This document shows positions 18,370 to 63,162 of a stretch of DNA of 64,000 nucleotides, piece by piece (position 1 is the stretch's first letter; each line of letters begins with the position of its first letter). The translations under genes were made by a program, and so were the position numbers. The notes beneath the pieces are model-generated. The model saw only the letters and a program-made list of their open reading frames with translations. It made no database searches and was not told the DNA's origin. Source of the DNA: Afipia sp. Root123D2 (lineage in GTDB: Bacteria; Pseudomonadota; Alphaproteobacteria; Rhizobiales; Xanthobacteraceae); assembly GCF_001425835.1 (NCBI RefSeq), contig NZ_LMDP01000002.1, positions 62,001-126,000 on the forward strand. The letters are read 5' to 3'.

Positions 18370-18516
18370 GAACGGTGAAGAACTGTGGGAAGCCGCTCAC
18401 CATCCGGGTTCCACCGTGATACCATTAATCGGGTATTTTGCGGCTTCAGGATGAGGCGTAGGCGGGCACATGCAGTGGTAACAAAACGGGGCCGGGCTGA
18501 AGACGGAAGGCGGAAG

Positions 18517-19203
18517 ATGACGGCCGGACAATCAGCCGACGCAGGCCAACAGATCTTGCACATTTTACTTACAGAAGACGACGGTCCGGTGCGCGAGCGG
18601 CTCGCCGGCATCGTACAGGGCTGGCAAGGCGGCAAGCTCGTCGGGATATGTGCCACCCTCGCTCAAACCCTGACCGCGATCGAGACCCACCATATCGATC
18701 TCCTGATCACGGACCTCAACCTGCCCGACGGCAACGGCATCAATGCAATCCGCACCCTCCGCCGGAAACAGCCGGCCGCCGAAGCGATGGTCATCTCCGT
18801 TCTTGCCGATGAACGGACGGTCCTCGCCGCGATCGAAGCTGGCGCGTCAGGTTATCTTCTCAAGGATGCAGATTCGATCGATCTGATCGAGTCGATTACC
18901 GAATTGATGGCAGGGCAATCGCCGATTTCATCGCGTATTGCGCGCGTTTTGGTGCGACGTCTTGCCGAACGCTCCAAGCCCGGTAAGTCCATCGAACTGA
19001 AGAATGACATCTTGACCGCCCGCGAGATGGACATCCTGTGGGGTATCGCCAAGGGCTTCACCTATAGCGAGTTGGCAGAACGGCTTGGGATCTCGCGACA
19101 GACCGTTCCGGTCCACATCAGAAATATCTACCGCAAGCTGGAAGCTTCCAATCGATCCGAAGCTGTCTTTGAAGCCACGCGGCTAGGTCTGATCCGGCTG
19201 TAA
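18517..19203 (+). CDS. NarL/LuxR-family response regulator
   Basis: A 228-residue two-component response regulator. The receiver domain (about 13-130) has the acidic pocket EDD (20-22), phospho-acceptor D66 in LLITDLNLPDG, and the conserved lysine K116 in YLLKDAD. The LuxR-type HTH (about 165-225) reads LTAREMDILWGIAKG and LAERLGISRQTVPVHIRNIYRKL. ATG 18517 is chosen because GGAAGG sits 6 bases upstream and the receiver fold starts shortly after; 44 further upstream codons are open but unlike the family. The sensor kinase gene follows after two bases, so they form one operon. Targets are unknown. Confidence 0.92.
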   Translation: MTAGQSADAGQQILHILLTEDDGPVRERLAGIVQGWQGGKLVGICATLAQTLTAIETHHIDLLITDLNLPDGNGINAIRTLRRKQPAAEAMVISVLADERTVLAAIEAGASGYLLKDADSIDLIESITELMAGQSPISSRIARVLVRRLAERSKPGKSIELKNDILTAREMDILWGIAKGFTYSELAERLGISRQTVPVHIRNIYRKLEASNRSEAVFEATRLGLIRL

Positions 19204-19205
19204 CG

Positions 19206-21035
19206 ATGGCGAGTGACACCAAAGCCCTGCCCCGGCTTTCACGCCTTCTAATCCTGGGGTTCGTTGCTCTACTGCTGGCATGTGCGCCGCAATTCGTGGA
19301 ATTTCCCCATCCGGATGGCGCAATCGAATTCGTCAACGCACAATTCAGCATTGACGGTGGCAAGCCGGAAACAGTGACGCTGCCACACGCATGGTCGTCA
19401 AAGCACGCATACGGTCCGGCGAAGGCGCGCTATGTCCTGGACATCAAGTATCCATCCTCCTCATCCGAGCAGCAATTCTTGCTCATTCCCGCCGTTCGCC
19501 AGAATCTGACGGCAGAACTCGACGGCCAGTCTCTTGACGGAAACGATGCGCGATTCTGGGGGAATGCGTCATCCGGAACCACACATCTGTTGCGCTTGCC
19601 AATGGCGGCACCGGGCAGCACCGGGCGCCTTGTGCTCACACTTGAGCGCAATGACGGTGCGGTCCCAGGTTATCTTTCACGGGTATACGTCGTGGGAGAA
19701 AAGGCGGTTGCACAGAACCGCTGGCTGGGTGTGCTCAGCAATGGCGGCCTGCGCGCAATCATCCATGCGCTTCATATTCTGATCGTCATCGGCATTGCGA
19801 CCGTTTGGGCCACACGCAGACATGACCCGGTTTTCTGCTGGCTGCTCCTGATTTGCGGCTGTAGTCTGGTGCTCGGTTTTCCGAGCGTACCCATTTCGCC
19901 TCCCGCTTTGGCGTTTATCAGGCCCTATCTTGTCCTGACATTATCCACGTTCGGACTGATGGCTGTCGGCTTGGCGCTTGCGATCAACGGCGTGCCGAGA
20001 CCAGCCTGGCTCAAGGCAGCCGTTCCACTCCTGCCTCTCCTTCTGATCGGCAGCGTTGCAACCGGTGTACTGCCGCCTTTTACCGGCGCGATTATCAGCG
20101 TCCTGATCGTCATTGGAGGACACTTCACAGCCGCCGGACTTTTGGCGCGCGATGCGCTTCGTGCGGGAGAATGGGGACGCACGCTTCTGGCGCTGACCTT
20201 TTTCCTGATCGGCTGGTGGGGCCTGCGCGATGTCGGGATCGTTCTCGGCGTGGTCAAAGGCGGGTTTCTGCTCGGCACGTACCTGCGCTCGCCGATCATC
20301 GTTGCCATCATGGTCCTGCTCATGGGCCGGCTCGCCGCAAGCCTGAATGAGCTCGACAACAAAAACGAAACCTTACGACTGCGATTGAAAGAACAGGAAG
20401 CCGAGCTGTCGATTCTCAACGACAAGGAGAGAATTCGCACCGTGCAGGCTGCGCGCGAGGAAGAGCGGGAACGGCTGATGCTCGACCTTCATGATGGACT
20501 AAGCGGACATCTGGTTTCGATCATCGCCTTGGCGGAGCGCGATACCGGTGAACGTCAGGGGATCGAACGCGCGGCACGCGAAGCACTCAACGACCTGCGG
20601 CTCGTGATCAACGCACTCGATCTTGGAGAAGGAGATCTTCTGCTGGCGCTTGCTGGTTTCCGGGAGAGACTCGCCCCGCAAATGCGTCGGCTTGGCATCG
20701 ATCTCAGTTGGTCGATGGAGAATCTGCCCGAGGTCAGCGGAGTGACCCCCGGCAATGCACTTTCGATCCTGAGAATCCTTCAGGAAGCGATCACCAACGC
20801 GCTCAAACATGGTCCCGCGAGCCATATCAAGGTCAAGGGTTCAGCCGGAAACAATGGTACGGCCGTGATCAAGGTAAAGAATGACGGGAGCAAGATGGCA
20901 GCCTTCGGCAAGGGCAGCGGTCTTGGCAACATGCAGCGCCGCGCGCAACAATTGGGCGGCCATGTTTCCCTCGACGAGACCACCGAACACGCCATCCTGA
21001 CGCTTGTGCTGCCACCGCGCCTTGGCGAAACCTGA
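19206..21035 (+). CDS. Membrane sensor histidine kinase (HisKA_3 type)
   Basis: A 609-residue inner-membrane kinase partnered with the NarL-type regulator two bases upstream. After a hydrophobic N-terminus (residues 13-27) comes an extracytoplasmic beta-rich region (about 30-175). About seven or eight hydrophobic helices follow (about 180-375), recalling 7TM-DISM receptors. A coiled coil (380-420) leads into the dimerization/phosphoacceptor segment ERLMLDLHDGLSGHL with H429. The ATPase domain has an N-box ILQEAITNALKHG (N531) and G-box GKGSGLGNM (569-576). It appears complete and active. The signal is unknown; the nearest metabolic genes are the acyl-CoA ligase and the IclR locus. Confidence 0.9.
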   Translation: MASDTKALPRLSRLLILGFVALLLACAPQFVEFPHPDGAIEFVNAQFSIDGGKPETVTLPHAWSSKHAYGPAKARYVLDIKYPSSSSEQQFLLIPAVRQNLTAELDGQSLDGNDARFWGNASSGTTHLLRLPMAAPGSTGRLVLTLERNDGAVPGYLSRVYVVGEKAVAQNRWLGVLSNGGLRAIIHALHILIVIGIATVWATRRHDPVFCWLLLICGCSLVLGFPSVPISPPALAFIRPYLVLTLSTFGLMAVGLALAINGVPRPAWLKAAVPLLPLLLIGSVATGVLPPFTGAIISVLIVIGGHFTAAGLLARDALRAGEWGRTLLALTFFLIGWWGLRDVGIVLGVVKGGFLLGTYLRSPIIVAIMVLLMGRLAASLNELDNKNETLRLRLKEQEAELSILNDKERIRTVQAAREEERERLMLDLHDGLSGHLVSIIALAERDTGERQGIERAAREALNDLRLVINALDLGEGDLLLALAGFRERLAPQMRRLGIDLSWSMENLPEVSGVTPGNALSILRILQEAITNALKHGPASHIKVKGSAGNNGTAVIKVKNDGSKMAAFGKGSGLGNMQRRAQQLGGHVSLDETTEHAILTLVLPPRLGET

Positions 21036-21134
21036 GCCCGGCTGCCCGCGATCCTTCCACTGCCTCGGATGAAGGCCGGCACCGCCCCTGTGCGGCTAAA
21101 TCCGCCGTCCCAGCTATTCAGAAATCCGTCTATC

Positions 21135-21150
21135 GTTCACAATGTTGACC
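21135..21150. promoter_or_regulatory. IclR-regulon operator-like site 1 (upstream of iclR-type gene)
   Basis: GTTCA-CAATGT-TGACC matches the pattern GTTCA-N6-TGAAC at 9 of 10 defined positions. It lies 75 bases upstream of the IclR-family gene, a suitable place for autoregulation. The pattern was defined by the perfect palindrome at 22280-22295. Confidence 0.5.
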
Positions 21151-21225
21151 CATCCCACACTGCGTGCAATTCATATGCAGGCATCATGGGTCGAGTCTCC
21201 CTGATACGCGCAGGAACGATGGAAA

Positions 21226-22107
21226 ATGATGACTCCAGTGTCGGGCGGAACCAAAAGCAACCCCGAACTCGCAGCAGCAGCGCCACGCTCCGTCACACGC
21301 GTCGTGCAGATATTCGACGATCTGTGCTCGCGCCCGACAGGCGCGTCGCTGGCCACACTCAGTGAAAGCCTCGGCGTTCCGAAGAGCAGCCTTCTCAACC
21401 TGCTGCGCGGCCTTTTGGCGAGCAATCACCTGACCTTTGTGGATGGCCTTTACCAGCTCGGACCTGAAGCCTACGGAATGGCCAGCGCTATCATTGCTGC
21501 CCGGCGCTTCCTCAGTTTTGCGGACCTGGCGCGCCCGATCATGCGCCGGCTGGTCGACACAACCCAGGAAACAGCCGTGCTGGCCGTGATGTCCGGCGAC
21601 AAGAAATCGGCGATTTATGTCGAAAAGATAGAGAGCCCAACCGCCCTTCGTTTTACTGCAACGGTGGGTGACTCGCGTCCGCTGCTGTGGTCTGCGGTGG
21701 GGCGTGTCCTGCTGGCATTCCAGATCGACCATTGGCTGAACGAATACATGCGAACGGTCAAAATGGTGAAGCACACACCTGTTTCCGAAATCCGGCGGGC
21801 GCGTTTGCGGGAAATTCTGGAAGAAGTCCGGCGCACGCATGTGGCAGTCACCGCCGACCAAGGCACCATGAACGTTTCTGGCTTCGCCGCGCCGATCTTC
21901 GACAGTTCGGGCACGCTGGTCGCGGCCGTCGGACTTGCCGCCCCGACCGATCGCTCGAAAACCCGGGTCGCGGAATTCAGCGCCATTGCGCACGATGCCG
22001 GCCTGGAGATTTCCCGGCTGATGGGTTACCGGCCCTTCGTCGCGGACACGGGACCTCGCCGTCGGCAGCCCGCAAAAACCCGGCAGCCTGCTCCGCGCCA
22101 GGGCTAA
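21226..22107 (+). CDS. IclR-family transcriptional regulator
   Basis: A 293-residue regulator with an N-terminal winged helix (about 20-80; SLGVPKSSLLNLLRGL is the recognition region) and an IclR effector domain (about 95-265, with AVMSGDKKSAIYVEKIESP and the ligand-domain segment GFAAPIFDSSGTLVAAVGLA). The start is at the first of two tandem ATGs, after CAGGAACG. It is transcribed toward the six-gene catabolic operon that begins 331 bases downstream. Palindromes of one type lie upstream of its own start, of that operon and of the TRAP operon, so it is the probable local regulator of all three. Confidence 0.92.
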   Translation: MMTPVSGGTKSNPELAAAAPRSVTRVVQIFDDLCSRPTGASLATLSESLGVPKSSLLNLLRGLLASNHLTFVDGLYQLGPEAYGMASAIIAARRFLSFADLARPIMRRLVDTTQETAVLAVMSGDKKSAIYVEKIESPTALRFTATVGDSRPLLWSAVGRVLLAFQIDHWLNEYMRTVKMVKHTPVSEIRRARLREILEEVRRTHVAVTADQGTMNVSGFAAPIFDSSGTLVAAVGLAAPTDRSKTRVAEFSAIAHDAGLEISRLMGYRPFVADTGPRRRQPAKTRQPAPRQG

Positions 22108-22279
22108 CTCCGCAGACCGACGGCTCATTTTCCGCGAATCCTGCTTTGCAGCTTAGCCGGCGTCGATCATGCATGGAGTCGTGCGACGATGCGCCGCCGA
22201 CAATGTGCTTTTCCGTAATCCGGCAGGTACCGGCGCCCTTCCGGGCACGGCCAGCCATGCCCCACCGGCAATCCCCTAT

Positions 22280-22295
22280 GTTCATATATATGAAC
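22280..22295. promoter_or_regulatory. IclR-regulon operator-like site 2: perfect 16-bp palindrome
   Basis: GTTCATATATATGAAC is a perfect 16-bp palindrome, 143 bases upstream of the CoA transferase that opens the catabolic operon, within the 331-base spacer 22108-22438. Length and symmetry suit an IclR dimer site. Its AT-rich centre could overlap a promoter. No other gene or terminator is supported in this spacer. Confidence 0.6.
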
Positions 22296-22438
22296 TTATA
22301 CCATTTTTCTGAATTGCAGTACGCAAGGAAGGTAGCTAGGTTGCCGTCATCGCGGGCCGCATCGCAGCGCGCCGCCGTCTGCACAATGCACCAGTAACTG
22401 CTGCCGGTCAGTCATATCTCTCAGGGGCAATTTTCAGT

Positions 22439-23662
22439 ATGGGACCGCTGGACGGCATCAAGATCATCGACATGACCTCGGTCTTGATGGGGCCGTATGC
22501 AACGCAAATGCTCGGCGACTACGGTGCGAACGTCATCAAGGTTGAATCGCCGGATGGAGACATCACCCGCCAAATCGGCCCGACAAGACATCCGGGCATG
22601 GGTCCGATCTTTCTCAACGCCAACCGCAGCAAGCGCAGCATCGCGCTGGACCTCAAGGCACCTGCGGGACGCGACGCGTTGCTGAGGCTTGCGAGCACGG
22701 CCGATGTGCTGGTCTATAACGTGCGCCCGCAGGCCATGGCCCGGTTGAAACTCGACTACGACAGCGTCGCTGCGGTGAATCCGCGCATCGTCTACGCCGG
22801 CATGTTCGGCTTCGGCCAGCAAGGGCCTTATGCGGCCAAGCCCGCCTATGACGATCTGCTCCAAGGCGCCTCCGGACTGTCGCACCTGATCGCACGCGCC
22901 GGCGACGGGACACCACGCTACGTGCCGACCGCGCTCGCCGACCGCGTCGTCGGCCTGTCCGCAGTCGGCGCGATTCTGGCCAGCCTGCTGCATCGCCAGC
23001 GCACCGGCCAAGGTCAGCGCGTCGACATCCCGATGTTCGAGACGATGGTTGGCTTTGTGATGAGCGACCATCTCGGCGGCCTGACTTTCGAACCGCCACT
23101 GGACCAGGGCGGCTATTCCCGTCAGATGTCGCCGGATCGCCGCCCCTATCCCACCAGCGACGGCTACATCAGCGTCATCGTTTACAACGACAAGCAATGG
23201 AACAGCTTCTTCGATGTCAGTGGGCGCGACGACCTGCGAGCCGATCCGATGTTTGCGACATTCGCCGGACGGCTTGCCAATATCGACGCGGTCTATGCGG
23301 AGCTTGGACGCATCTTCGCGACGCGAACGACTGCGGAGTGGATGCGATTGCTCGACAAGGCAGACATCCCTTCGATGCCGGTCCATGACCTGCTGAGCAT
23401 CCTGGACGACCCCCATCTGGTCGAAACAGACTTCTTCCCCGTTGCCGAACATCCCAGTGAAGGAGCTATTCGCAGTATGCGTGTCGCAACCACCTGGTCG
23501 GACACGCCCGCAACGCCCTCGCGCCTCGCTCCAAGATTGGGCGAACAGAGTCGCGAAATTCTCCGCGAGGCCGGATTTGGGGATGAGGAAATCTCCCGGC
23601 TTTTCAACGAAGGCGTGATCCGGACGACTGGCCCGGATGACAGCAACAACAATCAGGATTGA
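22439..23662 (+). CDS. Family III CoA transferase (CaiB/BaiF)
   Basis: A 407-residue CaiB/BaiF-type enzyme, predicted to transfer CoA between acyl-CoA and a carboxylic acid in the cytosol. The N-terminal nucleotide-like CoA-binding region IIDMTSVLMGPYATQMLGDY is typical. The catalytic aspartate is predicted at D138 in KPAYDDLLQG. It opens the six-gene operon. A closely similar paralogue (28745-29989) ends the convergent TRAP operon; both share NRSKRS/NRNKRS and the TADV...HNVRP/YNVRP segments. In this setting it may activate a dicarboxylate such as itaconate, mesaconate or methylsuccinate using succinyl-CoA, but the acid is inferred only from the neighbouring genes. Confidence 0.88.
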   Translation: MGPLDGIKIIDMTSVLMGPYATQMLGDYGANVIKVESPDGDITRQIGPTRHPGMGPIFLNANRSKRSIALDLKAPAGRDALLRLASTADVLVYNVRPQAMARLKLDYDSVAAVNPRIVYAGMFGFGQQGPYAAKPAYDDLLQGASGLSHLIARAGDGTPRYVPTALADRVVGLSAVGAILASLLHRQRTGQGQRVDIPMFETMVGFVMSDHLGGLTFEPPLDQGGYSRQMSPDRRPYPTSDGYISVIVYNDKQWNSFFDVSGRDDLRADPMFATFAGRLANIDAVYAELGRIFATRTTAEWMRLLDKADIPSMPVHDLLSILDDPHLVETDFFPVAEHPSEGAIRSMRVATTWSDTPATPSRLAPRLGEQSREILREAGFGDEEISRLFNEGVIRTTGPDDSNNNQD

Positions 23663-23666
23663 ACCG

Positions 23667-24833
23667 ATGAACTTTGCACCGACGGAAAATCAGGAAGCCA
23701 TTCGCGAAGCGATTCAGAAGATTTGCGCCAATTTCGACGATGCCTACTGGCTGAACAAGGACCGCGAAGGCGGCTTTCCGCACGACTTTCACAAAGCGAT
23801 GGCGGATGCGGGATGGCTCGGCATCTGCATTCCAGAGGAATTCGGCGGCTCGGGGCTGGGCGTCACCGAAGCCGCCATCATGATGCGCACCATCGCCGAA
23901 TCCGGAGCCGGCATGTCGGGGGCCTCAGCAGTCCACATCAACGTGTTCGGGTTGAATCCGGTCGTGGTGTTCGGTACCGACGAGCAGCGCAAAAGGATGC
24001 TGCCGCCGATGATCGAGGGCCGGGAAAAGGCCTGCTTCGCGGTCACCGAGCCCAACACCGGTCTCAACACGACCCAACTCAAGACCCGGGCCGAAGCCAA
24101 AAACGACCGATACATCGTCAACGGCCAGAAAGTCTGGATTTCGACCGCGCAGGTCGCACACAAAATCCTCCTGCTGGCGCGCACCACGCCGCTGGAAGAG
24201 GTCAACAGTCCGACCCATGGCCTCAGCCTGTTCTACACCGATTTCGACCGCAAGCGCATCAAGGTGCATGAGATCGAAAAGATGGGTCGCAAGGTCGTCG
24301 ACTCCAACGAATTGTTCTTTGAGGATTTTGAAATCCCGATGGAGGATCGCATCGGCGAGGAAGGACGCGGCTTCGAATACATCCTGCACGGCATGAACCC
24401 CGAACGAGTGTTGATCGCCGCCGAAGCGGTCGGCCTCGGCAAGCTCGCACTGTCGCGCGCAGCCGACTATGCGAAGACACGCATCGTTTTCAATCGGCCA
24501 ATCGGCAAGAACCAGGCGATCCAGCATCCGCTGGCGAAGAACTGGATGGAGCTTGAAGCCGCCTGGCTGATGACGCTGTCCGCCGCGTGGCAATATGACA
24601 ACGGCCTGCCCTGCGGCGCGGCTGCCAACGCTGCGAAGTATCTCGCCGGCGAGGCGGGTTTTCAGGCTTGCGAGCAGGCGGTGATGACCCATGGCGGTTT
24701 TGGCTATGCCAAGGAGTTTCACGTCGAGCGCTATCTGCGTGAAGTGCTCATTCCGCGTATCGCGCCGATCAGTCCGCAATTGATCCTGAGCTTCATCGCC
24801 GAGCGCGTACTCGGCCTGCCGAAGTCCTACTAA
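23667..24833 (+). CDS. Acyl-CoA dehydrogenase
   Basis: A 388-residue FAD-dependent acyl-CoA dehydrogenase, expected to pass electrons to ETF. The N-terminal helical, middle beta (CFAVTEPNTGLNTTQLKTRA, 123-142) and C-terminal helical domains are all present. The catalytic base is probably E246 in GMNPERVLIAAE, the position used by isovaleryl-CoA dehydrogenase. The site used in short/medium-chain enzymes (YEG motif) instead reads IPRIAPISPQL. An upstream in-frame start at 23637 is possible, but ATG 23667 follows the previous stop by 4 bases with AGGA nearby. Within the operon it could oxidize methylsuccinyl-CoA or another branched acyl-CoA to the 2-enoyl-CoA used by the MaoC hydratase. Confidence 0.9.
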   Translation: MNFAPTENQEAIREAIQKICANFDDAYWLNKDREGGFPHDFHKAMADAGWLGICIPEEFGGSGLGVTEAAIMMRTIAESGAGMSGASAVHINVFGLNPVVVFGTDEQRKRMLPPMIEGREKACFAVTEPNTGLNTTQLKTRAEAKNDRYIVNGQKVWISTAQVAHKILLLARTTPLEEVNSPTHGLSLFYTDFDRKRIKVHEIEKMGRKVVDSNELFFEDFEIPMEDRIGEEGRGFEYILHGMNPERVLIAAEAVGLGKLALSRAADYAKTRIVFNRPIGKNQAIQHPLAKNWMELEAAWLMTLSAAWQYDNGLPCGAAANAAKYLAGEAGFQACEQAVMTHGGFGYAKEFHVERYLREVLIPRIAPISPQLILSFIAERVLGLPKSY

Positions 24834-24860
24834 GTTACGGCAGCGCAGGCAGGCATCGCC

Positions 24861-26123
24861 ATGGCCGACGTTATCCCGGTGGATGAACTCGATTTCGCCG
24901 GCCTGATCAAACCGGGCGATGTCGTCGTGTGCGGTCAGGCAACCGCCGAGCCACGCACGCTCACCGAAGCGATTGTGGCGCAGAAAGATCGGCTACCGTC
25001 CTTCACAATGATGGTGGGCCCGGTCTTTACCGACACGTTCGCGCCCGACCGGACCACCGGGATCGAGTTTCTAAGCTATGGCGTGATCGGAAATGCCCGG
25101 GTGCTGGCCAAGGCTCGCCGCCTCGACATCGTGCCCAGCAACTACAGTGCATTTTGCGCCGACTTTGCCGCAGGACGCCATCGAGCCGACGTCGTTCTGA
25201 TCCAGCTCTCGTCGCGGAATCCGGCCCGCGGACTGAGCACAAGCCTGTCAAACGACTATGTGCTGGATGCGGCGCGGCGGGCGCGCGTCGTCATCGCGGA
25301 AATCAATCCGGACGCGCCCTGGACCTTTGGCGCGGAGTGGCCGCAGGACATCCCCCTGCATGTCCGCGTCCAGGCGCGCCATCGTCCGGTCGAACTGGCA
25401 TCGCCCCCGGTCGATGACGTATCGCGCAAGATCGCAATGTACGCAGCCGGTCTGATTCCGGATGGTGCGACACTGCAGTTCGGCGTCGGCAAGGTTCCCG
25501 ACGCCATTCTCTCGAGCCTGTCGCATTTGCGCAATCTCGGGATTCATTCCGGCCTTATCAACGATGCCGTGGTTGACCTGATCGAGCGCGGCGTCGTGAC
25601 GAATGCCGCCAAGGGCATCGACGCGGGAATGACCGTTACCAATCAGTTGATCGGGACAAAACGTCTTTACGACTTCGCCCATGACAATGCAGCGGTGGAA
25701 GTTCGGCCGACATCCTACACTCATGCGGCCGGCGTGCTGGCGCGCATCAACAAACTGATTGCCCTCAACTCCGCGCTACAGGTTGGGCTCGACGGCAGCG
25801 TCAATTCCGAGACACTGAATGGTGTGGCCGTCGGCGCGATCGGCGGTCAGGTCGACTTTGTACGCGGTGCCAACGCATCACCCGGCGGCCGCGCAATCAT
25901 CGCGCTGCCGGCTGTTTCCAACGGACGCAGCCGCATCGTGCCGCATGTGGAAACGGTCACCACCGCGCGCGGTGACGTCGATGCTATCGTCACCGAATGG
26001 GGTGTCGCCGAACTGGCCGGGTGCAGCTTGCGCGAGCGCGCGCGACGGATGATCGGCATTGCCGCTCCGGAACATCGGGAGAACCTGAGCCGATCGGCCT
26101 TCATGCAGGAACGACAGCCATGA
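24861..26123 (+). CDS. Acetyl-CoA hydrolase/transferase-family protein (4-hydroxybutyrate/itaconate CoA transferase-like) lacking the usual catalytic Glu
   Basis: A 420-residue protein homologous along its length to 4-hydroxybutyrate CoA transferase, the family that also contains RipA/Ict of itaconate degradation. Conserved segments include [16 protein letters not shown] (205-220), GTKRLYDFA and [10 protein letters not shown]. In the characterized enzyme the catalytic glutamate lies in LGIHSEMISDG; here that stretch reads [11 protein letters not shown], giving Gly231 (codon GGC at 25551-25553). The protein may therefore work by another mechanism, act as a hydrolase or have lost transfer activity. 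Whether Ict-type homologues share this residue I cannot tell. It is the third gene of the operon, and its stop overlaps the racemase start (ATGA). Confidence 0.85.
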
Positions 26124-27325
26124 ACAGCAAAACCGATGCGGCCGAACACACCACACTCGGCGGCACGACCACACCGTCCGCTCAAGGACCGCTTCACGGA
26201 ATCCGCATTGTTGAGTTCGCCGGTGTCGGGCCGGCGCCGATGGCCGCCATGCTGCTGGCTGACCTCGGAGCCGACGTGATCCGCATCGACCGCCTCCAGC
26301 CCAGTGGTCTCGGCATCGACAAGCCGAAAAAATTCGACCTGCTGGCGCGCGGCCGGCAAGCCGTGGCCATCGATCTCAAGCACGCCGATGGCGTGGCCTG
26401 CGCGCTCGATCTCATCGCGTCGGCGGACGGGCTGATCGAGGGATTTCGTCCCGGGGTGATGGAACGGATCGGCCTCGGGCCTGACGAATGTTTCAAACGA
26501 AACCCCCGCCTGGTCTTTGGCCGCGTGACCGGCTGGGGCCAGCATGGGCCGCTGGCACCCGTGGCGGGGCACGATCTGAATTACATTGCCTTGACCGGCG
26601 CACTTCATGCCATCGGCCGCGCCGGCGAGCCGCCTGCTCCGCCGCTCAATCTGGTCGGGGACTACGGCGGCGGCGCGCTATATCTCGCCTTCGGCATGAT
26701 GTGCGCTCTGGTCGAGCGGCAGCGCTCCGGCCGCGGCCAGATCGTCGATGCTGCGATGATCGATGGCGCCGCGACGCTGATGACATCCCTTTTCGGCATG
26801 ATTGGCGCGGGAATCCACAATGCCCCGCGCGGCGCCAATCTGCTCGATTCCGGCGCACCTCATTACGAGGTCTACCGCTGCGCCGATGGCGAGTATGTCG
26901 CAATCGCCCCGATCGAGGAGAAATTCCGTACGGTCCTGCTCGAACGCATCGGGATCGATCCGGCCGAATTCCCCGACGTTGCCGATCGCGCCCACTGGCC
27001 TAAAGCAAAGGCGATCCTGGCGGAGACATTCGCACAGCGCTCACGGCAGGAATGGTGCGAACTGCTGGAAGGCAGCGATGCCTGTTTCGCGCCCGTCCTC
27101 TCGGCGCAGGAAGCTCCCGATCACCCGCACAACAAGGCGAGACGGACCTTCGTTGAGATCGACAGCGTGATGCAGCCGGCGCCCGGACCCCGCTTCAGCC
27201 GGACAAGCCCACCGCTGCCGCGCAGTTCACAGCAATGCCGCGGCGATACTGGTGACTTGCTCGCTGCTTGGGACATCGACAGCGGGCGCATCGCAACGCT
27301 GCGAAACGCCGGAATCATCCGATAA
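26120..27325 (+). CDS. Alpha-methylacyl-CoA racemase (CaiB/BaiF fold)
   Basis: A 401-residue CaiB/BaiF-fold protein that is a racemase rather than a CoA transferase. Residues H151 (AGHDLNY), D181 (LVGDYGG) and E266 (APIEEKF) reproduce the spacing 30 and 85 of the catalytic H126/D156/E241 set of mycobacterial alpha-methylacyl-CoA racemase. GWGQHGP and the DG-containing AAMIDGA segment also fit. Such enzymes epimerize the alpha carbon of 2-methylacyl-CoAs. In this operon, 2-methylsuccinyl-CoA is an attractive substrate, feeding the right enantiomer to the dehydrogenase. ATG 26120 overlaps the previous stop; a longer frame from 25997 lies inside the upstream gene and is rejected. Confidence 0.9.
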
Positions 27326-27362
27326 CCAGAAATATCCGACACTCAATAGAAGGGAGCTACAG

Positions 27363-27818
27363 ATGGCAGGTCTATACTTCGAGGAATTCATCGTCGGCCA
27401 TGAATTTCACCATGAGTTCAGCCGTACGGTCACCGAAATGGACAATACGATGTTCAGCCTGCTGACGCAGAACCCGCAGCCCCTGCACGTCGATGCGCAT
27501 TTCTCGGAGAACACTGAATTCGGACAGCGTCTGTTCAACAGCCTCTATACGCTGGGCATCATGATCGGCATGAGTGTCTACGACACCACGCTCGGCACCA
27601 CGGTCGGCAACCTCGGCATGACCGAGGTCAAATTCCCCAAGCCGGTGTTCCATGGGGATACACTGAAGGCGCACACCAAAATCATTTCCAAGCGTCTCAG
27701 CAAGTCGCGCCCCAATCAAGGTATTGTCGAATTCGAACACACCGCGACCAACCAGCGCGGCGAGGTCGTCGCCAGTTGCCGGCGCACCGGCCTGATGCAT
27801 TGCAAGCCGAAGGCCTGA
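27363..27818 (+). CDS. MaoC-family hot-dog dehydratase (itaconyl/mesaconyl-CoA hydratase-like)
   Basis: A 151-residue single hot-dog domain protein. The hydratase-2-type motif NPQPLHVDAHF (37-47) carries the expected histidine and aspartate. KFPKPVFHGDTLKAHTKI in the second half is characteristic of MaoC-like hydratases. An AGAAGGGAGC box precedes ATG 27363. Its place directly before a CitE-like lyase and after an Ict-family protein matches the itaconate genes ripB/ich, whose product hydrates itaconyl-CoA to citramalyl-CoA; mesaconyl-CoA hydration by a close relative is the alternative. It acts in the cytosol, probably as an oligomer. Confidence 0.88.
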   Translation: MAGLYFEEFIVGHEFHHEFSRTVTEMDNTMFSLLTQNPQPLHVDAHFSENTEFGQRLFNSLYTLGIMIGMSVYDTTLGTTVGNLGMTEVKFPKPVFHGDTLKAHTKIISKRLSKSRPNQGIVEFEHTATNQRGEVVASCRRTGLMHCKPKA

Positions 27819-27822
27819 ACCG

Positions 27823-28683
27823 ATGCGGTCATTCCTGTTCGTTCCGGGCGACAGCGCCCGCAAATTCGAGAGCGCGAAGAAAACCGCAGCGGATGCCCTG
27901 ATCCTCGATCTCGAGGATTCGGTGGCGCCCGATCAGAAGGCGACGGCGCGGACCATCACCCGTGGAATGCTCGATGCGCGGAAGGCCGGGCAGAAGCTCT
28001 ACGTTCGCGTCAATGCGCTCGATACTGGACTGACACTTGCGGACCTTGCCGCCGTGATGCCAGGTCGGCCCGACGGCATCGTCCTGCCGAAATGCGCCGG
28101 CCCTGCCGACGTCAATCACCTCGCGCTCTATCTCGACGCCTTTGAAGCGGCATCTGCGCTTGAGACGCAGTCGACCCGCATCGTCGTCGTCGCAACGGAG
28201 ACCGCACAAGCCGTGCTCAAGCTGCACAGCTACGAAGGTGCCAGTTCGCGGCTGTGGGGCATGATGTGGGGCGCCGAGGATCTCGCGGCCTCGCTCGGCG
28301 CGTCACGCAACAGCACCGACGGGCGCTACCACAGCCCGTTCCTGCTCGCGCGGGACCTGTGCTTGATCAGCGCGGCGGCAGCGGGCGTGGTGGCGATCGA
28401 CACCATCGCCACCGACATCGACAACCTCGCCGCGCTCAAGGACGAGACCGTCGCGGCCCGGCGTGACGGGTTTCTCGCCAAGGCCGTGATTCATCCCAAG
28501 CACGTCGATGTCGTCAACGCCGCGATGACACCAACCGACGAAGAGGTCGTTTGGGCACGGAACATCGTCAAGGCGTTCGACGACAATCCGAATTCCGGGG
28601 TCGTCAAGATCGACGGAAAGATGATCGACAAGCCGCATTTGCGCGCCGCGATAAAAATTCTGGGGTTGGTTGAACCGAAGTAG
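27823..28683 (+). CDS. CitE-like CoA-ester lyase (citramalyl/malyl-CoA lyase family)
   Basis: A 286-residue HpcH/HpaI aldolase-superfamily protein of the CitE branch, Mg2+-dependent. Visible family segments are FLFVPGDSARKFESA (5-19), ALILDLEDSVAPDQKATAR, GIVLPKCAGPADV and MMWGAEDLAASLGA, which hold the metal-binding acidic residues. Members cleave 3-hydroxyacyl-CoAs; in the ripC/ccl context the substrate is citramalyl-CoA, giving acetyl-CoA and pyruvate. It begins 4 bases after the MaoC gene and ends the operon, 61 bases from the convergent CoA transferase. The assignment to citramalyl-CoA is by context; beta-methylmalyl-CoA or malyl-CoA are alternatives. Confidence 0.88.
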   Translation: MRSFLFVPGDSARKFESAKKTAADALILDLEDSVAPDQKATARTITRGMLDARKAGQKLYVRVNALDTGLTLADLAAVMPGRPDGIVLPKCAGPADVNHLALYLDAFEAASALETQSTRIVVVATETAQAVLKLHSYEGASSRLWGMMWGAEDLAASLGASRNSTDGRYHSPFLLARDLCLISAAAAGVVAIDTIATDIDNLAALKDETVAARRDGFLAKAVIHPKHVDVVNAAMTPTDEEVVWARNIVKAFDDNPNSGVVKIDGKMIDKPHLRAAIKILGLVEPK

Positions 28684-28744
28684 CCGGACCACCGCACACC
28701 AAACGGATAGCGCTCCGGCACCCAAAGTGACGGACCGTCATCTG

Positions 28745-29989
28745 CTAGCCGGAATCGCGAACCATAGCGCCCTCTCCGGCCAGCGCTTCGATGTCACCGT
28801 CGCTGAAGCCCGCCTCGCGCAGGATTTCATCACCGTGCTCACCAAGCCGCGGCGGACAACTGCGGATCGACGACGGCGTGCGGCTCCAGCGCGCCGCCGG
28901 GCCCGCGACGCGAAGCTTGCCCTCGGTGGGATGGTCGATCTCCCGGAAAAATCCCACCTCGGACAGATGCGGATCGTCGATCAGGCTGTCGAGGTCATGC
29001 ATCGGCCCGCAAGGAATATCGGCTTCCTCGAACAGGCGCATCCACTCTGCTGTCGTGCGGGTCTCGATCAGGTCGGCGAGCCACTTGTAGACGTGGTCGT
29101 AATTTCGGGTGCGTGCCGACATGTCCTTGAAACGTGGATCGCGCTGCTCCGGATCGGTCTTGATGGCACTGAAGAAGGCGTCCCAATGCTTGTCCGTATA
29201 AATCAGTGCGCATATGTAACCGTCGCGCGTTCGATAGGGACGCCGATCGGGCGCGAGCAACCGGGAATATCCCGGCGGGCCGAGCGGCGGGTCATAGCTG
29301 CGTCCAGCCATGTGGTCACCGAGCACGAACTGCGCCATGGTTTCGAACATCGGGACTTCGATCGCCTGCCCCTCGCCGGTGCGGTCGCGATGCAGCAGCC
29401 CGGCGAGAATGGCGTGGGTCGCGTTCAACCCGACAATGCGATCGGCAATCGTGGCGGGTGAATAGCGTGGCTCGCCGGTGATCTTGCCGACCAGAGCCGG
29501 CAGCGCCGTCAGCCCCTGAATCAAGTCATCATAAGCCGGCCGCCCGGCGTAGGGCCCTTCCTCGCCAAACCCATGCAGGGCGACGTAAACGAGCCGTGGA
29601 TTGACCACGAGCAGATCGTCGGCGCTGAGCTTCAACCGCCGCATCGCGGCAGGCCGCACGTTATGGACGAAGACATCGGCGGTCTCACTCAACCGCAGCA
29701 ATGCCTCGCGGCCACGCGGTTTCTTCAGGTCCAGAACGATCGACCGCTTGTTTCGATTGCCCTGGAGATACATCGCTCCCATACGCGGACTGCGCATGGG
29801 AGCGGCATAGCGCATCACGTCGCCTTCAGGGCTTTCGACCTTGATGACGTCGGCCCCGTAATCTCCCAGGATCATGGTGGCGTAAGGCCCCATCATGACA
29901 CTGGTCAGATCGATCACCCTGACTCCCGCCAACGGGCCTTTCGCCCCAGTTGCAGCAGCCTGCGCCCCGGCCCTGCCACGCTGGTTCAC
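28745..29989 (-). CDS. Family III CoA transferase (CaiB/BaiF), paralogue of 22439-23662
   Basis: A 414-residue CaiB/BaiF enzyme with the predicted catalytic aspartate D154 in RPAYDDLIQG. It resembles the plus-strand CoA transferase at 22439 throughout the first 160 residues (VIDLTSVMMGPYATMILGDY; NRNKRSIVLDLKKP), so the two are recent-looking paralogues. It starts at GTG 29989, overlapping the TGA of the TRAP binding-protein gene (GTGA), and is the last gene of the TRAP operon. Co-transcription with an importer suggests that it adds CoA to the solute just imported. Divergence of the two copies could reflect two substrates or two CoA donors. Confidence 0.88.
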   Translation of the reverse strand: MNQRGRAGAQAAATGAKGPLAGVRVIDLTSVMMGPYATMILGDYGADVIKVESPEGDVMRYAAPMRSPRMGAMYLQGNRNKRSIVLDLKKPRGREALLRLSETADVFVHNVRPAAMRRLKLSADDLLVVNPRLVYVALHGFGEEGPYAGRPAYDDLIQGLTALPALVGKITGEPRYSPATIADRIVGLNATHAILAGLLHRDRTGEGQAIEVPMFETMAQFVLGDHMAGRSYDPPLGPPGYSRLLAPDRRPYRTRDGYICALIYTDKHWDAFFSAIKTDPEQRDPRFKDMSARTRNYDHVYKWLADLIETRTTAEWMRLFEEADIPCGPMHDLDSLIDDPHLSEVGFFREIDHPTEGKLRVAGPAARWSRTPSSIRSCPPRLGEHGDEILREAGFSDGDIEALAGEGAMVRDSG

Positions 29990-31026
29990 TTGGTCGCGGC
30001 CAGTGCCGCGGTAAACGCCTTCAGCACCTCGGTGCCCGGTTTACCGCGCTTGTCCGTATCCTTGGCCCAGGAATCCGCGACGCTGGCAAAGGCGGACGCA
30101 AACCCCTTGTTATCGGCATCGCTGAAATTGATGACCTTCATGCCCTGGCTTTGCACCTTCTCGCCGGCCACCCGCTCACCTTCCTCGAAGCGCTTGCAGC
30201 CTTCGCGGGTCGTTTGCTCACCGGCCTCGGCCAACGCCTTGCGGACGTTCTCGGGCAACGACTTCCACTTGGTCTCGCCTATTGAATAGGTAATCAGCGC
30301 GGTGCCGAAATTCATGCCGGATGTTCCGGACTTCAGCAATTTGCCGAGGTCATAGGAGAGCGTGCTCTGGTAAGACAGCACGACGCCGTCGAGCGTACCG
30401 CGTGTCATCGACTCATAAATCTCGGGCGCAGCCATGCGAACCGGCACGCCCTTGATGGAACGCATCATCAGATCCATCGCGCCGCCTGCCGTGCGAATCT
30501 TCAGGCCTTCGAGGTCGGCTGCTTTCGCAATCGGGCGCGGGTTCGACAGAAGAATCTGATAAGCCGGCAGAGCAATGGTCACCAGCGGACGGAGCCCGTT
30601 GGGCAGGAATTCCTTTGTCTCGAGGATTCCGCCATTGTGCGACAGCTTGTAAAAGGCGAGCGAGCCTTGGCATTGGGTCTGGAAAATTCCGGGAAGCTCC
30701 GAGACGGCCGTCAGCGGATACTTGTCCGACGAATAGGATGGAACGACATAGGCAATATCAGCGACGCCAGCGGTCGTGAGTTGCGCCATGTCCTTGGCCT
30801 TGCCGAGTTGTTCGGAGGGGAAATGCTGGAAGGTTACCTGGCCGTTCGTTGCCTTGGTCACCAGCTCCATGAAGGGCTTTCCGGCCAGTTCGTGAATGAC
30901 ATGGCCATGCGGCAAGCTATCCGCGAACCGTAGCGTGATCTTCTGCTGGGCCGTCGCGACGCTTGCGCTCGACAGCCATGCTGCAACCATCACGGCCGCG
31001 ACAGCAATTGAACTCTTATTGGTCAT
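29986..31026 (-). CDS. TRAP transporter substrate-binding protein (DctP family), copy 1
   Basis: A 346-residue periplasmic receptor with a Sec signal peptide ending near SVATAQ (about residue 26). The DctP fold is recognizable: FADSLPHGHVIHELA near the mature N-terminus and GLKIRTAGGAMD, which holds the conserved arginine that binds the substrate carboxylate. RGTLDGVVLSYQS is a family signature. It is paralogous to the DctP at 32979, and the two flank a single DctQ-DctM pair. It lies between dctM (46 bases upstream) and the CoA transferase (overlapping). A mono- or dicarboxylate ligand is expected; the catabolic genes nearby suggest a C5 dicarboxylate. Confidence 0.92.
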   Translation of the reverse strand: MTNKSSIAVAAVMVAAWLSSASVATAQQKITLRFADSLPHGHVIHELAGKPFMELVTKATNGQVTFQHFPSEQLGKAKDMAQLTTAGVADIAYVVPSYSSDKYPLTAVSELPGIFQTQCQGSLAFYKLSHNGGILETKEFLPNGLRPLVTIALPAYQILLSNPRPIAKAADLEGLKIRTAGGAMDLMMRSIKGVPVRMAAPEIYESMTRGTLDGVVLSYQSTLSYDLGKLLKSGTSGMNFGTALITYSIGETKWKSLPENVRKALAEAGEQTTREGCKRFEEGERVAGEKVQSQGMKVINFSDADNKGFASAFASVADSWAKDTDKRGKPGTEVLKAFTAALAATK

Positions 31027-31072
31027 AATGCAGTCTCTCCCATGTTCATGTTTATTGTTTCGCGAAGAGCGC

Positions 31073-32362
31073 TCAGTAGCCCATCTTCATCGGCAGCCAT
31101 AGAATGATCTGCGGCCACGCCACCAGAATGGCGATCGCGAATATGTGGGCGATGAAATGCGGCAGTGTGCCGTGGAAGACCTCCGCGACCGGGCGGCCTG
31201 AATAGCGGGCCACGACGTAGCAGTTCAGGCCGACTGGCGGCGTGATCATGCCGACTTCCGCTGTCACGATCTTGACCACGCCGAACCAGAGCGGATCGAA
31301 TCCGAGCGATTTGATCAGCGGCAGGACAATCGGAACGGTGAGGACCAGAATCGCAATCTGGTCCATGAACGACCCAAGCACGATATAGCCGCACAGAATC
31401 AGCGCCATGATCAGCCAGCGCGACACATCGAGGGCACCGACCCATGCAACGAGATCCTGCGTCACCTGGGCGAGCGTGAAGAAATACCCGAAGATGTAGG
31501 CTCCGAGCAGAATCATCGAAATCATGCAGGTGCCGTGAGCCGCGCGCACCAGCGCACGATACAAGCCCGCCCACGACATCTTGCGCATCCAGATCGTGAG
31601 ACAGAACGCACAAAACGCTCCGAGAGCCGACGCCTCGGTCGGCGTCGCGATGCCTGTATAAATAACCCCGGTGACCATGCCGAACAGCAGCAGCATCGGT
31701 CCGACAATGCGCAGCATCCGGAATTTCTCACGCATCGAAACCCGTGGCCCGCCAGGCGCCCGCGAGGGATCCTGCCAGGCCAGGAACCAGACCGTCAGCA
31801 TGATGGTCGCGGTGACGAGAAGGCCCGGGATCACACCGCCCACCAGCAGCGCACCGATATTCACTTCGGCAAGCAGACCATAGATCACCAGTGCAACCGA
31901 GGGCGGGATCAGCATGGCCAGCGTGCCGGAGATGGCAACGACGCCTGCGGCCATCCGTGGCTCATAACCTTGCTTGAGCATGGCAGGAAGACTGGTCGAG
32001 GACAGCGTCGCGGCGGATGCCGTCGAGGTGCCGCAGATCGCGCCGAAGCCGGCTCCCGCCAACGCGGTCGCCATGCCAAGACCGCCCGGGATTCGGCCAA
32101 CCCAGGCCGACGTCGCGCGGAACAGATCGTCGGCGATACCGCTCATCAACACCAGTTCCGCCATCAGCAGGAACATCGGGATGGTGATGAGCTCGTAAGA
32201 CGTCACTGCGGACAACGGCGCGGTCTGCAGGATGCCTGTAAGCACGGACATGCCGCCAAGCATATAGAGACCGAGCGAACCCGCCCCGGCCATGGCGAAC
32301 CCCACGGGCGTTCCGATCGCGAGCAGGCCGAACAGTACGGCAAGACAAAGAACAACGGTCAT
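31073..32362 (-). CDS. TRAP transporter large permease (DctM)
   Basis: The 12-helix inner-membrane subunit of a tripartite ATP-independent periplasmic transporter, about 429 residues, driving Na+- or H+-coupled solute import. The family start MTVVLCLAVLFGLLAIGTPVGFAMAG is obvious at ATG 32362, overlapping the dctQ stop (ATGA). The frame extends upstream to 32524 but those codons lie within dctQ. Typical segments include GLGMATALAGAGFGAICGTS and VGMITPPVGLNCYVV, the conserved loop near the C-terminus. It works with the DctQ subunit and probably with either of the two binding proteins of this operon. Confidence 0.93.
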   Translation of the reverse strand: MTVVLCLAVLFGLLAIGTPVGFAMAGAGSLGLYMLGGMSVLTGILQTAPLSAVTSYELITIPMFLLMAELVLMSGIADDLFRATSAWVGRIPGGLGMATALAGAGFGAICGTSTASAATLSSTSLPAMLKQGYEPRMAAGVVAISGTLAMLIPPSVALVIYGLLAEVNIGALLVGGVIPGLLVTATIMLTVWFLAWQDPSRAPGGPRVSMREKFRMLRIVGPMLLLFGMVTGVIYTGIATPTEASALGAFCAFCLTIWMRKMSWAGLYRALVRAAHGTCMISMILLGAYIFGYFFTLAQVTQDLVAWVGALDVSRWLIMALILCGYIVLGSFMDQIAILVLTVPIVLPLIKSLGFDPLWFGVVKIVTAEVGMITPPVGLNCYVVARYSGRPVAEVFHGTLPHFIAHIFAIAILVAWPQIILWLPMKMGY

Positions 32363-32913
32363 TCGAAGGTTTCCGCTTCGGAAGCGATATGGGATGTCGG
32401 CAACGGAATGATGTCCCTGCCCGTGAGCAACGAGAGGAGATGGCCGACAAGGTGCAGCGCCAGGCGGAACGTCAACAAGCCTGCGCCGAGAGGCACCAAT
32501 CCAATCGACGGCCACATTGGCCACGGGATTGCACCGGCCATGACATCAGCCGCCCTGTAACTGTCGAGAGTACGCTGCCAGCCGAACCAGGCGATCAGTG
32601 AAAAGACGACAATTCCGATGATGCAAGTCACCATTTCTGTCAGGCGAATGCCCACAGGCGACAGCTTCTGCTGAAGAATATCAACATTCACATGGGCATT
32701 CGAAGCATAGGCTTCGGACAGTATGAGGAAGAACACCCCCGCCATCAGATAAAGCGCGATGAGGTCATACGCCCAGGAGAACGGGCGGTTGAACACATAG
32801 CGCATCACCACATCGCTAAAGACGATGACCATGATGAGAAACATGAACATCGCGGCGATGAACGAGCCAATCTTTTCGATCGTCCCGAGCGCCTTTATGA
32901 TTCCGTTGATCAC
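32359..32913 (-). CDS. TRAP transporter small permease (DctQ)
   Basis: A 184-residue inner-membrane protein with four predicted helices, the usual form of DctQ. FLIMVIVFSDVVMRYVFNRPFSWAYDL is a family hallmark: a helix followed by the N-R-P motif and a W. The start is GTG 32913 with GGGGAGG 5 bases upstream. The Shine-Dalgarno region directly follows a 9-bp hairpin (32925-32945), which might influence its translation. It partners the DctM encoded immediately downstream. Confidence 0.92.
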   Translation of the reverse strand: MINGIIKALGTIEKIGSFIAAMFMFLIMVIVFSDVVMRYVFNRPFSWAYDLIALYLMAGVFFLILSEAYASNAHVNVDILQQKLSPVGIRLTEMVTCIIGIVVFSLIAWFGWQRTLDSYRAADVMAGAIPWPMWPSIGLVPLGAGLLTFRLALHLVGHLLSLLTGRDIIPLPTSHIASEAETFE

Positions 32914-32924
32914 GCTTCCTCCCC

Positions 32925-32945
32925 GGCCGCGCCTCTGGCGCGGCC
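32925..32945 (-). other. Intercistronic hairpin between TRAP binding protein and small permease
   Basis: GGCCGCGCC (32925-32933) and GGCGCGGCC (32937-32945) form a 9-bp stem with a 3-base loop, 33 bases after the binding-protein stop codon and immediately before the dctQ ribosome-binding site. No U-tract follows, so it more likely stabilizes the upstream message or tunes dctQ translation than ends transcription. Confidence 0.65.
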
Positions 32946-32978
32946 TGTCAGCGATACTGCTGTCACGTATTCGGAGAA

Positions 32979-34010
32979 TTACTTGGCCGGGATAGCGGCG
33001 ACCAGATCGTCATATTCCTTCAGCGCGTCGCTTCCCCGCTTGCCGCGTGCGTCCAGCCCCTGAGCCCAGGTCTTGGCAACACCCTTGAGAAGGTCATTGA
33101 ACTTGGCGCGCGCGTCGGGTTGCACGGCTTCAAACGTTACACCGTGCGCAGCGAGCTTTTTCTTGGTTTCCTCGTCCGTGTCCTGAACGTGCTTACAGGC
33201 GGACGGCACGATCTCCTCCGCCACGTCCACCATGGCCTTCTGAACCTCGGGCGACAATTTCTTCCAGGCAGCGTCACTAATCGAGTAGGACACGATAAAG
33301 CTGCCGAATCCGACGCCATCGGTCGCATACTTCACAAGCTTGTCGGCGCCATATGCAACGACGCTCTCGAGCGGAAAGAGCAACCCATCCAGCGTGCCGC
33401 GAGATAGCGATTCATAGGCATCCGGCGCGGCCATACGAACCGGCACTGCACTGAGAGCGCGCAACGTCAGATCCTGCGCACCGCCGGTCGAGCGCAGCTT
33501 CAGGCCGACCACGTCGGCAGCGGTATTGACCGGCGCCTTGATCGTAAAAATCCTGTACTGCGGCAAGGCCACAGCCAGCAGCAGCCGGATGTTGTTCTTC
33601 GCATAATCCTGCTCCGCGATGACACCGCTGCGAGCCGACTTCCAGTAAGCAAGGGTCCCCTGGCAAGAATGGGTGAAAGCACCCGGCAACATTGCCACTT
33701 CCGACACCGGCATCTTCTCAGCCGCGTATGCAGGGGCGACGTAGCCGATATCAGCCACACCGGTTTGCGTCAGCTTCAGCATGTCGGTAGCTTTGCCCAG
33801 TTGCTGAGCTGGGTAATGTTCGAATGTCACGGCATTGTTCGTGCGCTTTCGAACTTCTTCCATCCACGGCTCGAGAATCAACTTTACGAGGTAGTGCCCC
33901 TTCGGAAATGAATCGGCGACACGCAACCGCATCGGCTCAGCGGCATGCGCAACACTCGACGAAACAGCAAATATGGCGATCACCGCCATCATCCGACGTA
34001 TTGCCACCAC
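32979..34010 (-). CDS. TRAP transporter substrate-binding protein (DctP family), copy 2
   Basis: A 343-residue periplasmic receptor and first gene of the TRAP operon. The signal peptide ends near SSVAHAA (about residue 23). It aligns with DctP copy 1 over its whole length: DSFPKGHYLVK, HYPAQQLGKATDMLKLTQTG, GLKLRSTGGAQD (carboxylate-binding arginine) and SRGTLDGLLFPLES. The start is GTG 34010 with GAGG 6 bases upstream. An operator-like site of the IclR type lies 73-88 bases upstream. The two receptors probably bind related carboxylates and share the DctQM channel. Confidence 0.92.
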   Translation of the reverse strand: MVAIRRMMAVIAIFAVSSSVAHAAEPMRLRVADSFPKGHYLVKLILEPWMEEVRKRTNNAVTFEHYPAQQLGKATDMLKLTQTGVADIGYVAPAYAAEKMPVSEVAMLPGAFTHSCQGTLAYWKSARSGVIAEQDYAKNNIRLLLAVALPQYRIFTIKAPVNTAADVVGLKLRSTGGAQDLTLRALSAVPVRMAAPDAYESLSRGTLDGLLFPLESVVAYGADKLVKYATDGVGFGSFIVSYSISDAAWKKLSPEVQKAMVDVAEEIVPSACKHVQDTDEETKKKLAAHGVTFEAVQPDARAKFNDLLKGVAKTWAQGLDARGKRGSDALKEYDDLVAAIPAK

Positions 34011-34082
34011 CTTGATCCTCCCACGTTGTCTGCTTTTGCTTGCTGCAGTTCCGATCCGCTGTCGTACAGATTTACGGCAAGC

Positions 34083-34098
34083 GTTCAGATTTGTGAAT
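34083..34098. promoter_or_regulatory. IclR-regulon operator-like site 3 (upstream of TRAP operon)
   Basis: GTTCA-GATTTG-TGAAT matches GTTCA-N6-TGAAC at 9 of 10 defined positions. It is 73 bases upstream of the GTG of the first TRAP gene, close to the 75-base spacing of the site before the IclR gene. It lies in the 318-base spacer 34011-34328, where I see no gene; the part nearer 34328 is downstream of the RND gene and shows no clear terminator. Confidence 0.5.
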
Positions 34099-34328
34099 TA
34101 TTTGCATGGAACGAACGCGACCGTCAATGGGGCACGCTCGCATTGATATCGCGACTATATCCTGCTCGTTGGGATTAAAGTCCGCCCCTCACGAAGCGTT
34201 CCAGCTACAGCAAGAATGACGTGCGGCACCGGCATGTCGACACGAGATCAAAGGGGCGACGTGCGACATCGCGGGCTATATGGCGCGTGAGACCATGCGC
34301 GCAAACGCAACGCGATGGCCGATGATTT

Positions 34329-61629: not shown

Positions 61630-63162
<1,533 letters not shown>

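Follow-up and report, generated by a model that had tools for sequence, protein, structure and literature searches.

Three short palindromes lie in front of an iclR gene, a catabolic operon and a TRAP transporter operon of Afipia sp. Root123D2, which raises the question of whether they are operators of one local regulator or chance matches to a common pattern. To answer it, we analyzed a window of 64,000 nucleotides (positions 62,001 to 126,000 of contig NZ_LMDP01000002.1, assembly GCF_001425835.1), which is part of contig 2 of a 7-contig, 4.8-Mb genome. A first-pass annotation, made from the DNA letters alone, had proposed that sites fitting GTTCA-N6-TGAAC join the three transcription units into one regulon under the encoded IclR protein. 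We found that the three sites are conserved in orthologous loci, keep a fixed spacing to a further half-site and form an extended element that is nearly exclusive to these loci. Very probably, they are operators of the adjacent, autoregulated IclR, which would couple dicarboxylate uptake to degradation.

Palindromes and a third half-site in the window

All three palindromes are found where the first-pass annotation had placed them, with a perfect copy before the catabolic operon (GTTCATATATATGAAC, 10 of 10 arm positions and a full palindrome) and 9-of-10 fits before iclR (GTTCACAATGTTGACC) and before the TRAP operon (GTTCAGATTTGTGAAT). The distances to the genes needed one correction, as the first site does lie 75 bases from the iclR ATG, while the last lies 72 and not 73 bases from the GTG of dctP. 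The window contains eight matches at up to one mismatch, compared with a mean of 1.42 after shuffling (none of 100 shuffles reached eight), and the remaining five (8806, 18799, 35666, 43102 and 57492) fall inside long open frames. Genome-wide, the 10-base motif occurs at 218 places at this threshold versus 44 for a control pattern, with at least seven perfect copies among the matches listed. A scan for matches in unrelated genes would thus have come out against the 10-base motif, which is unspecific. A one-mismatch fit to it is by itself weak evidence, and the case is modest on the motif alone.

Specificity is restored by a third box. Aligning ten sites from the window and its relatives showed that the operator described in the first-pass annotation is correct as to the palindrome but incomplete, as it lacks a further half-site, RTTCA, that lies outside the palindrome at a distance of 19 bp and gives the extended element RTTCA-N14-GTTCA-N6-TGAAC. 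After the box had been spotted by eye, we scanned 50 offsets on both sides of the sites and in both box orientations; offset 19 ranks first, with 15 of 15 bases for the three sites of the related genome G033 and 14 of 15 for those of the window, and none of 2,000 mononucleotide shuffles of the flanks equaled either score. In the window, the third box scores 5, 5 and 4 of 5 at the three intergenic sites and at most 2 of 5 at the five others. The box directly repeats the half nearest to it, with 14 bases in between, and the boxes do not alternate in direction. Given that the second palindrome has an inner half that matches at 1 or 2 of 5 bases in nine of the ten sites and at 4 of 5 in contig L028, the element would be a tandem site that has lost the inner half of its second palindrome, rather than the published alternating three-box layout. 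The coordinates of all features are collected in the table.

Table. Operator elements, candidate promoter elements and genes of the predicted regulon (window coordinates).
Feature	Position	Strand	Basis
iclR-promoter third box ATTCA, 19 bp from palindrome left half	21116..21120	+	flank scan
iclR-promoter palindrome GTTCACAATGTTGACC	21135..21150	+	window scan; aligned site in L026, G033, L028
iclR candidate -35 TTGACC, coincides with palindrome right half	21145-21150	+	
iclR regulator gene, 293 aa, HTH_IclR and IclR_C	21226..22107	+	Pfam, NCBIfam
Catabolic-operon palindrome GTTCATATATATGAAC	22280..22295	.	window scan; perfect in L026 and G033
Catabolic-operon third box TGAAT (RTTCA on - strand)	22310..22314	+	invariant in window, L026 and G033 within TTTCTGAATTGC
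Catabolic-operon candidate -35 TTGCAG (L026: TTGCCG)	22314..22319	+	conservation in three loci
Catabolic-operon candidate -10 TAGGTT, 17-bp spacer	22337..22342	+	invariant in three loci
Six-gene catabolic operon	22439..28683	+	open frames, NCBIfam, Pfam
CaiB/BaiF CoA-transferase, catabolic operon	22439-23662	+	
Acyl-CoA dehydrogenase, catabolic operon	23637-24833	+	
Cat1-type CoA-transferase, catabolic operon	24861-26123	+	
Second CaiB/BaiF, catabolic operon	about 25997-27325	+	
MaoC (RipB/Ich-like), catabolic operon	27360-27818	+	
CitE (RipC/Ccl-like), catabolic operon	27823-28683	+	
CaiB/BaiF CoA-transferase, final TRAP-operon gene	28745..29989	-	NCBIfam
TRAP operon	29986..34010	-	NCBIfam, Pfam
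Second DctP	29986-31026	-	
DctM	31073-32524	-	
DctQ	32359-32913	-	
DctP1	32979-34010	-	
TRAP candidate third box GTACA, 19 bp, downstream side, weak in window	34064..34068	+	
TRAP-promoter palindrome GTTCAGATTTGTGAAT (- strand ATTCACAAATCTGAAC)	34083..34098	.	window scan; perfect in G033, G072
TRAP alternative third box GTTCG, 18 bp, promoter side	34112-34116	-	
TRAP-operon candidate -35 TTGACG	34122..34127	-	TTGAC invariant in window, G033 and G072

The catabolic operon follows iclR in the same orientation, and the TRAP operon, with two DctP genes and one CaiB transferase, starts at 34010 and is convergent with it. The regulator scores 23.3 bits against HTH_IclR (cut-off of 22) and 107.5 bits against IclR_C (cut-off of 24), which places it in the IclR family. 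The window operon carries extra transferases atop a four-gene core: contig L026 keeps a CoA-transferase, the dehydrogenase, MaoC and CitE, the Cat1-type transferase and the second CaiB (24861-27325) are absent from its operon, and the second CaiB is absent from G033. DctP1 is 41 to 45% identical to the second DctP of the window, G033 and G072, and the solved structure nearest to DctP1 by sequence is 4p56.

Conservation and near-exclusivity of the sites

We searched 391 genomes of the family for the regulator, scoring the best six candidates per genome, so that weaker homologues may be missed. Five genomes, the window's own included, carry an IclR at ≥75% identity (G000, G196, G033, G072 and G226); G196, G033 and G226 appear, by position and sequence, to be contigs L026, L027 and L028, and these close orthologs come from Xanthobacteraceae and Rhodopseudomonas metagenome-assembled genomes. 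The comparison of orthologous spacers that the first-pass annotation had proposed as a check supports it. The operon palindrome is perfect in all three loci with an operon start (window, L026 and G033), and its spacer differs by locus (TATATA, ACTATA and ATTATG). The TRAP palindrome, 9 of 10 in the window, is perfect in G033 (GTTCACATTTGTGAAC) and G072 (GTTCAGATTTGTGAAC), which are both of the relatives with DctP1 at ≥73% identity; DctP1 was not matched in G196 or G226 at an E value of 1e-40. The alignment of the operon spacers has 73 invariant columns among 189 ungapped ones, including all 10 arm positions and the third box, and that of the TRAP spacers 49 of 141, including 9 of the 10 arm positions. 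At iclR, the left half of the site is kept in four of four loci (GTTCA in three and GTTCG in one), and the third-box position reads GTTCT, GTTCA and GTTCA in L026, G033 and L028, respectively. The TRAP third box is ATTCA in both G033 and G072, 19 bp away on the promoter side.

In G072, the TRAP-CaiB operon ends with the IclR ortholog, and the single perfect site within 40 kb precedes this operon. Judged by gene order, this layout ties the site to the regulator even without the catabolic operon. G072 also encodes a second IclR (34%) next to the TRAP site, as part of a paralogous system (L052, 5359-10772; C3:2140359-2145772); it is divergent from an operon of acyl-CoA dehydrogenase, CitE, MaoC and acyl-CoA ligase, and the spacer between them contains a tandem element of the GTTCG type.

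The exact 15-base element is rare, with 10 matches in 9 of the 391 family genomes. Five of these matches are at the IclR locus (one in G000, two in G033, one in G072 and one in G196), and G041, G084, G164, G279 and G320 have one each elsewhere, so that the element is present in four of the five ortholog-bearing genomes versus 5 of the 386 others. The sole point free of circularity is that the ortholog-bearing genomes contain no other exact matches. At up to two mismatches, the extended element is found at 15 places in the organism's own genome; by hand count, palindrome and box each have at most one mismatch at six of them, three of which are the spacers described here, while the others lie in a luciferase-like monooxygenase gene, in a putative cold-shock frame (read by eye) and in an open frame without a Pfam match (L078).

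Two of the exact matches outside the orthologous loci, those of G041 and G084 (L115 8402-8436 and L116 8518-8552), precede another IclR gene, which is 69% identical between the two genomes; in G084, an aldehyde dehydrogenase gene runs divergently from it, and G041 also has a nearly complete outer palindrome. By their arrangement, these sites mark another IclR regulon, distinct from the first, with tandem sites spaced at 19 bp.

As a held-out case, we considered G631, a genome from another family of the class whose IclR homologue was not used in defining the motif. Its IclR (39% identical) has a DctP-ACS operon on one side and a divergent DctQ-DctM-CaiB operon on the other, and the two spacers flanking iclR each contain a perfect GTTCA-N6-TGAAC, with no other match at up to one mismatch in 20 kb. 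The layout recurs in G507 (37%), where both spacers carry ATTCG-N6-CGAAC and one of them a further CGAAC at 19 bp; the sites of G652 have GTTCC arms. Since the recognition helices are similar, comparing them gave no clear residue-base rule for GTTCA versus RTTCG or GTTCC arms. The recognition helix of the window's regulator reads PKSSLLNL, where we take two of its residues to be Ser30 and Asn33, with numbering by way of the TM0065 sequence. Ser30 and Asn33 are among the residues linked to even-length motifs (PMC8222616). The even-length motif found here is in line with both, and G631 has Val at position 33.

Alternative explanations and promoter registers

A common 10-base pattern could fall into three spacers by accident, and the 218 genome places and the five window matches inside open frames speak for this; conservation in orthologs with changed spacers, the fixed 19-bp box, the near-exclusive element and the held-out G631 sites speak so strongly against it that we reject chance, which we regard as extremely unlikely and which the comparative data can already be said to refute. 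If the sites are functional, they could instead belong to a LuxR-type response regulator and histidine kinase (18385-21035), which by Pfam are encoded directly upstream of the window's iclR, or to a GntR-type regulator (15768-16550), given that these genes lie within a few kilobases. We searched by tblastn (E value of 1e-15) 40-kb stretches of both G033 and G072, the L026 contig (5.3 kb) and 10.7 kb of L028, each of which contains the IclR, and found none of the three proteins; moreover, the motif arms match a published IclR class. We therefore reject the neighboring regulators, which we consider highly improbable. The iclR site might also be the by-product of a conserved -35 hexamer, as its right half reads TTGACC in three of four loci. 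The left half and the third box (ATTCA, GTTCA, GTTCA and GTTCT) are, however, kept upstream of this hexamer in all four, so that a pure -35 origin is rejected, and we hold it to be unlikely.

The favored reading is thus that iclR, the catabolic operon and the TRAP operon form one regulon, as the first-pass annotation had suggested, and the conserved sites with changed spacers, the near-exclusive extended element and the perfect sites of held-out G631 support it. Several observations weigh against it. In none of the four loci is the right half of the iclR site perfect (TTGACC in three and TTGCAT in one), and it may persist as a -35 hexamer, and the TRAP third box of the window is degenerate, with ambiguous side and spacing. 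As the extended element was defined from these loci, finding it there is in part circular; G226 (L028) lacks an exact copy, its best match having two mismatches. In G631, the third box is weaker (one and two mismatches over the whole element), and the genome has five element places at up to two mismatches. Among 26 stretches around IclR homologues of 31 to 42% identity, which span up to about 1.5 kb either way from the match, 18 lack GTTCA-N6-TGAAC at up to one mismatch, and some distant homologues use RTTCG or GTTCC arms. Finally, neither the iclR/operon stretch nor the TRAP spacer yielded a promoter in a strict σ70 scan, so that our -35 and -10 placements rest on conservation only.

With these placements, the operon palindrome is centered at about -62 relative to the inferred start, and its element abuts the candidate -35 from the upstream side; the iclR palindrome covers the candidate -35, and the TRAP palindrome is centered near +1. 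Each site combines a strong palindrome with an extra half-site two helical turns away, and would most plausibly be occupied by a pair of IclR dimers on one face of the DNA. The regulator would control its own gene, the operon for CoA-thioester degradation (CoA-transferase, acyl-CoA dehydrogenase, MaoC hydratase and CitE lyase) and the TRAP operon, so that uptake and degradation of one dicarboxylate respond jointly. The position upstream of -35 would suit activation of degradation, that over -35 autorepression, and that near +1 repression of uptake. It is quite possible that the IclR is instead a pure repressor at each of the three promoters, with a CoA-ester or a dicarboxylate releasing it, as at iclR and TRAP the sites overlap with candidate elements of the core promoter and as the IclR family includes repressors, activators and dual regulators (PMC8222616). 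Against this, 18 bp separate the operon palindrome from the candidate -35 downstream of it, and the operon's TTGCAG/TAGGTT is far from consensus, as expected of an activated promoter. Given these three registers, a dual regulator seems somewhat likelier than a pure repressor, although this is a weaker inference than that of the regulon itself. The specific proposal that a single IclR uses one element in three registers, activating degradation, restraining its own gene and repressing uptake, is doubtful; part of it is that the side on which the extra half-site lies changes from promoter to promoter and, for TRAP, may also change from one ortholog to another.

Relation to known IclR regulons

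IclR proteins bind as dimers or tetramers, and the sites described here resemble group 1, subgroup NGT-12-ACN, of Suvorova and Gelfand 2021 (PMC8222616) in being 16-bp, even-length palindromes with GTYCR arms; GTTCATATATATGAAC and its orthologous sites fit GTYCR-N6-YGRAC. They differ from the subgroup consensus in that the window's operon site has T6 and A11 instead of A6 and T11, and the orthologous sites vary here. The same work predicts tandem sites with a spacing of 18 to 22 nt for 94 orthologous groups and three-box sites for 32. The element described here fits that spacing, with a second recognition element at an offset of 19 nt, and its regulon would likewise comprise the regulator and one or two neighboring operons, but of the second site the outer half alone is conserved. 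The three-box sites consist of boxes in alternating direction that fit two consensus pairs, which is a different layout.

The operators of PcaU, PobR and HmgR, which are cited there for an external half-site repeat, likewise combine a palindrome with such a direct repeat but have arms of the GTTCG/GTCCG type rather than GTTCA. The IclR scores 81 bits against the PcaR/PcaU/PobR model TIGR02431, far below the cut-off of 284.75. The NpdR operator of Rhodococcus opacus (GTTCMRYATMRTGAWS) has nearly the same arms and length, but NpdR controls trinitrophenol degradation (PMC8222616). The best NCBIfam match of the regulator is BhcR (NF045644), with 110.7 bits against a cut-off of 350. BhcR of Paracoccus denitrificans, for which a dual role as activator and repressor has been proposed (PMC11323563), would be similar in this role but belongs to a different pathway.

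In gene content, the locus resembles the itaconate/methylsuccinate cluster PA0878-PA0886 (PMC9875883 and PMC12290011), which has a CoA-transferase, an acyl-CoA dehydrogenase, an Ich-type hydratase, a Ccl-type lyase and a dedicated dicarboxylate transporter, comparable to the TRAP importer; unlike that cluster, the operon has extra CaiB transferases. The dehydrogenase of the Pseudomonas branched dicarboxylate cluster acts on methylsuccinyl-CoA (PMC12290011 and PMC9875883). Methylsuccinate or a similar C5 dicarboxylate as the substrate is only a guess, since MaoC and CitE are below the cut-offs of the named families (137.8 of 340 bits for RipB_Ich and 176.1 of 375 bits for RipC_Ccl). A term search of the available part of PMC12290011 found neither "IclR" nor "regulator," and that of PMC9875883 found "regulator" once.

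The literature that we searched on IclR regulation of itaconate/methylsuccinate clusters or of TRAP/CaiB operons held nothing on this regulon, and no labeled regulon for this locus was found in the literature covered, which did not extend to the supplementary tables of PMC8222616, so that earlier inclusion there is possible. The claim of a previously unlabeled motif therefore holds for the locus but not for the motif class or the 19-bp arrangement, both of which are published for the IclR family (PMC8222616). The regulatory circuit, most probably that of the local IclR, is ordinary in kind, with a known motif class and a regulon that we did not find labeled.

The result provides a concrete predicted operator for an uncharacterized IclR clade and brings TRAP uptake into one predicted regulon with the CoA-dependent degradation of dicarboxylates. 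It also shows that a one-mismatch palindrome scan alone misleads, as it is the 19-bp box that separates the conserved sites from coding noise. The GTTCA, RTTCG and GTTCC arms that occur with similar recognition helices make up a natural series for a change of DNA preference among IclR proteins, and, if the three-register proposal is true, the extra box would serve in this clade as a movable switch that sets activation or repression.

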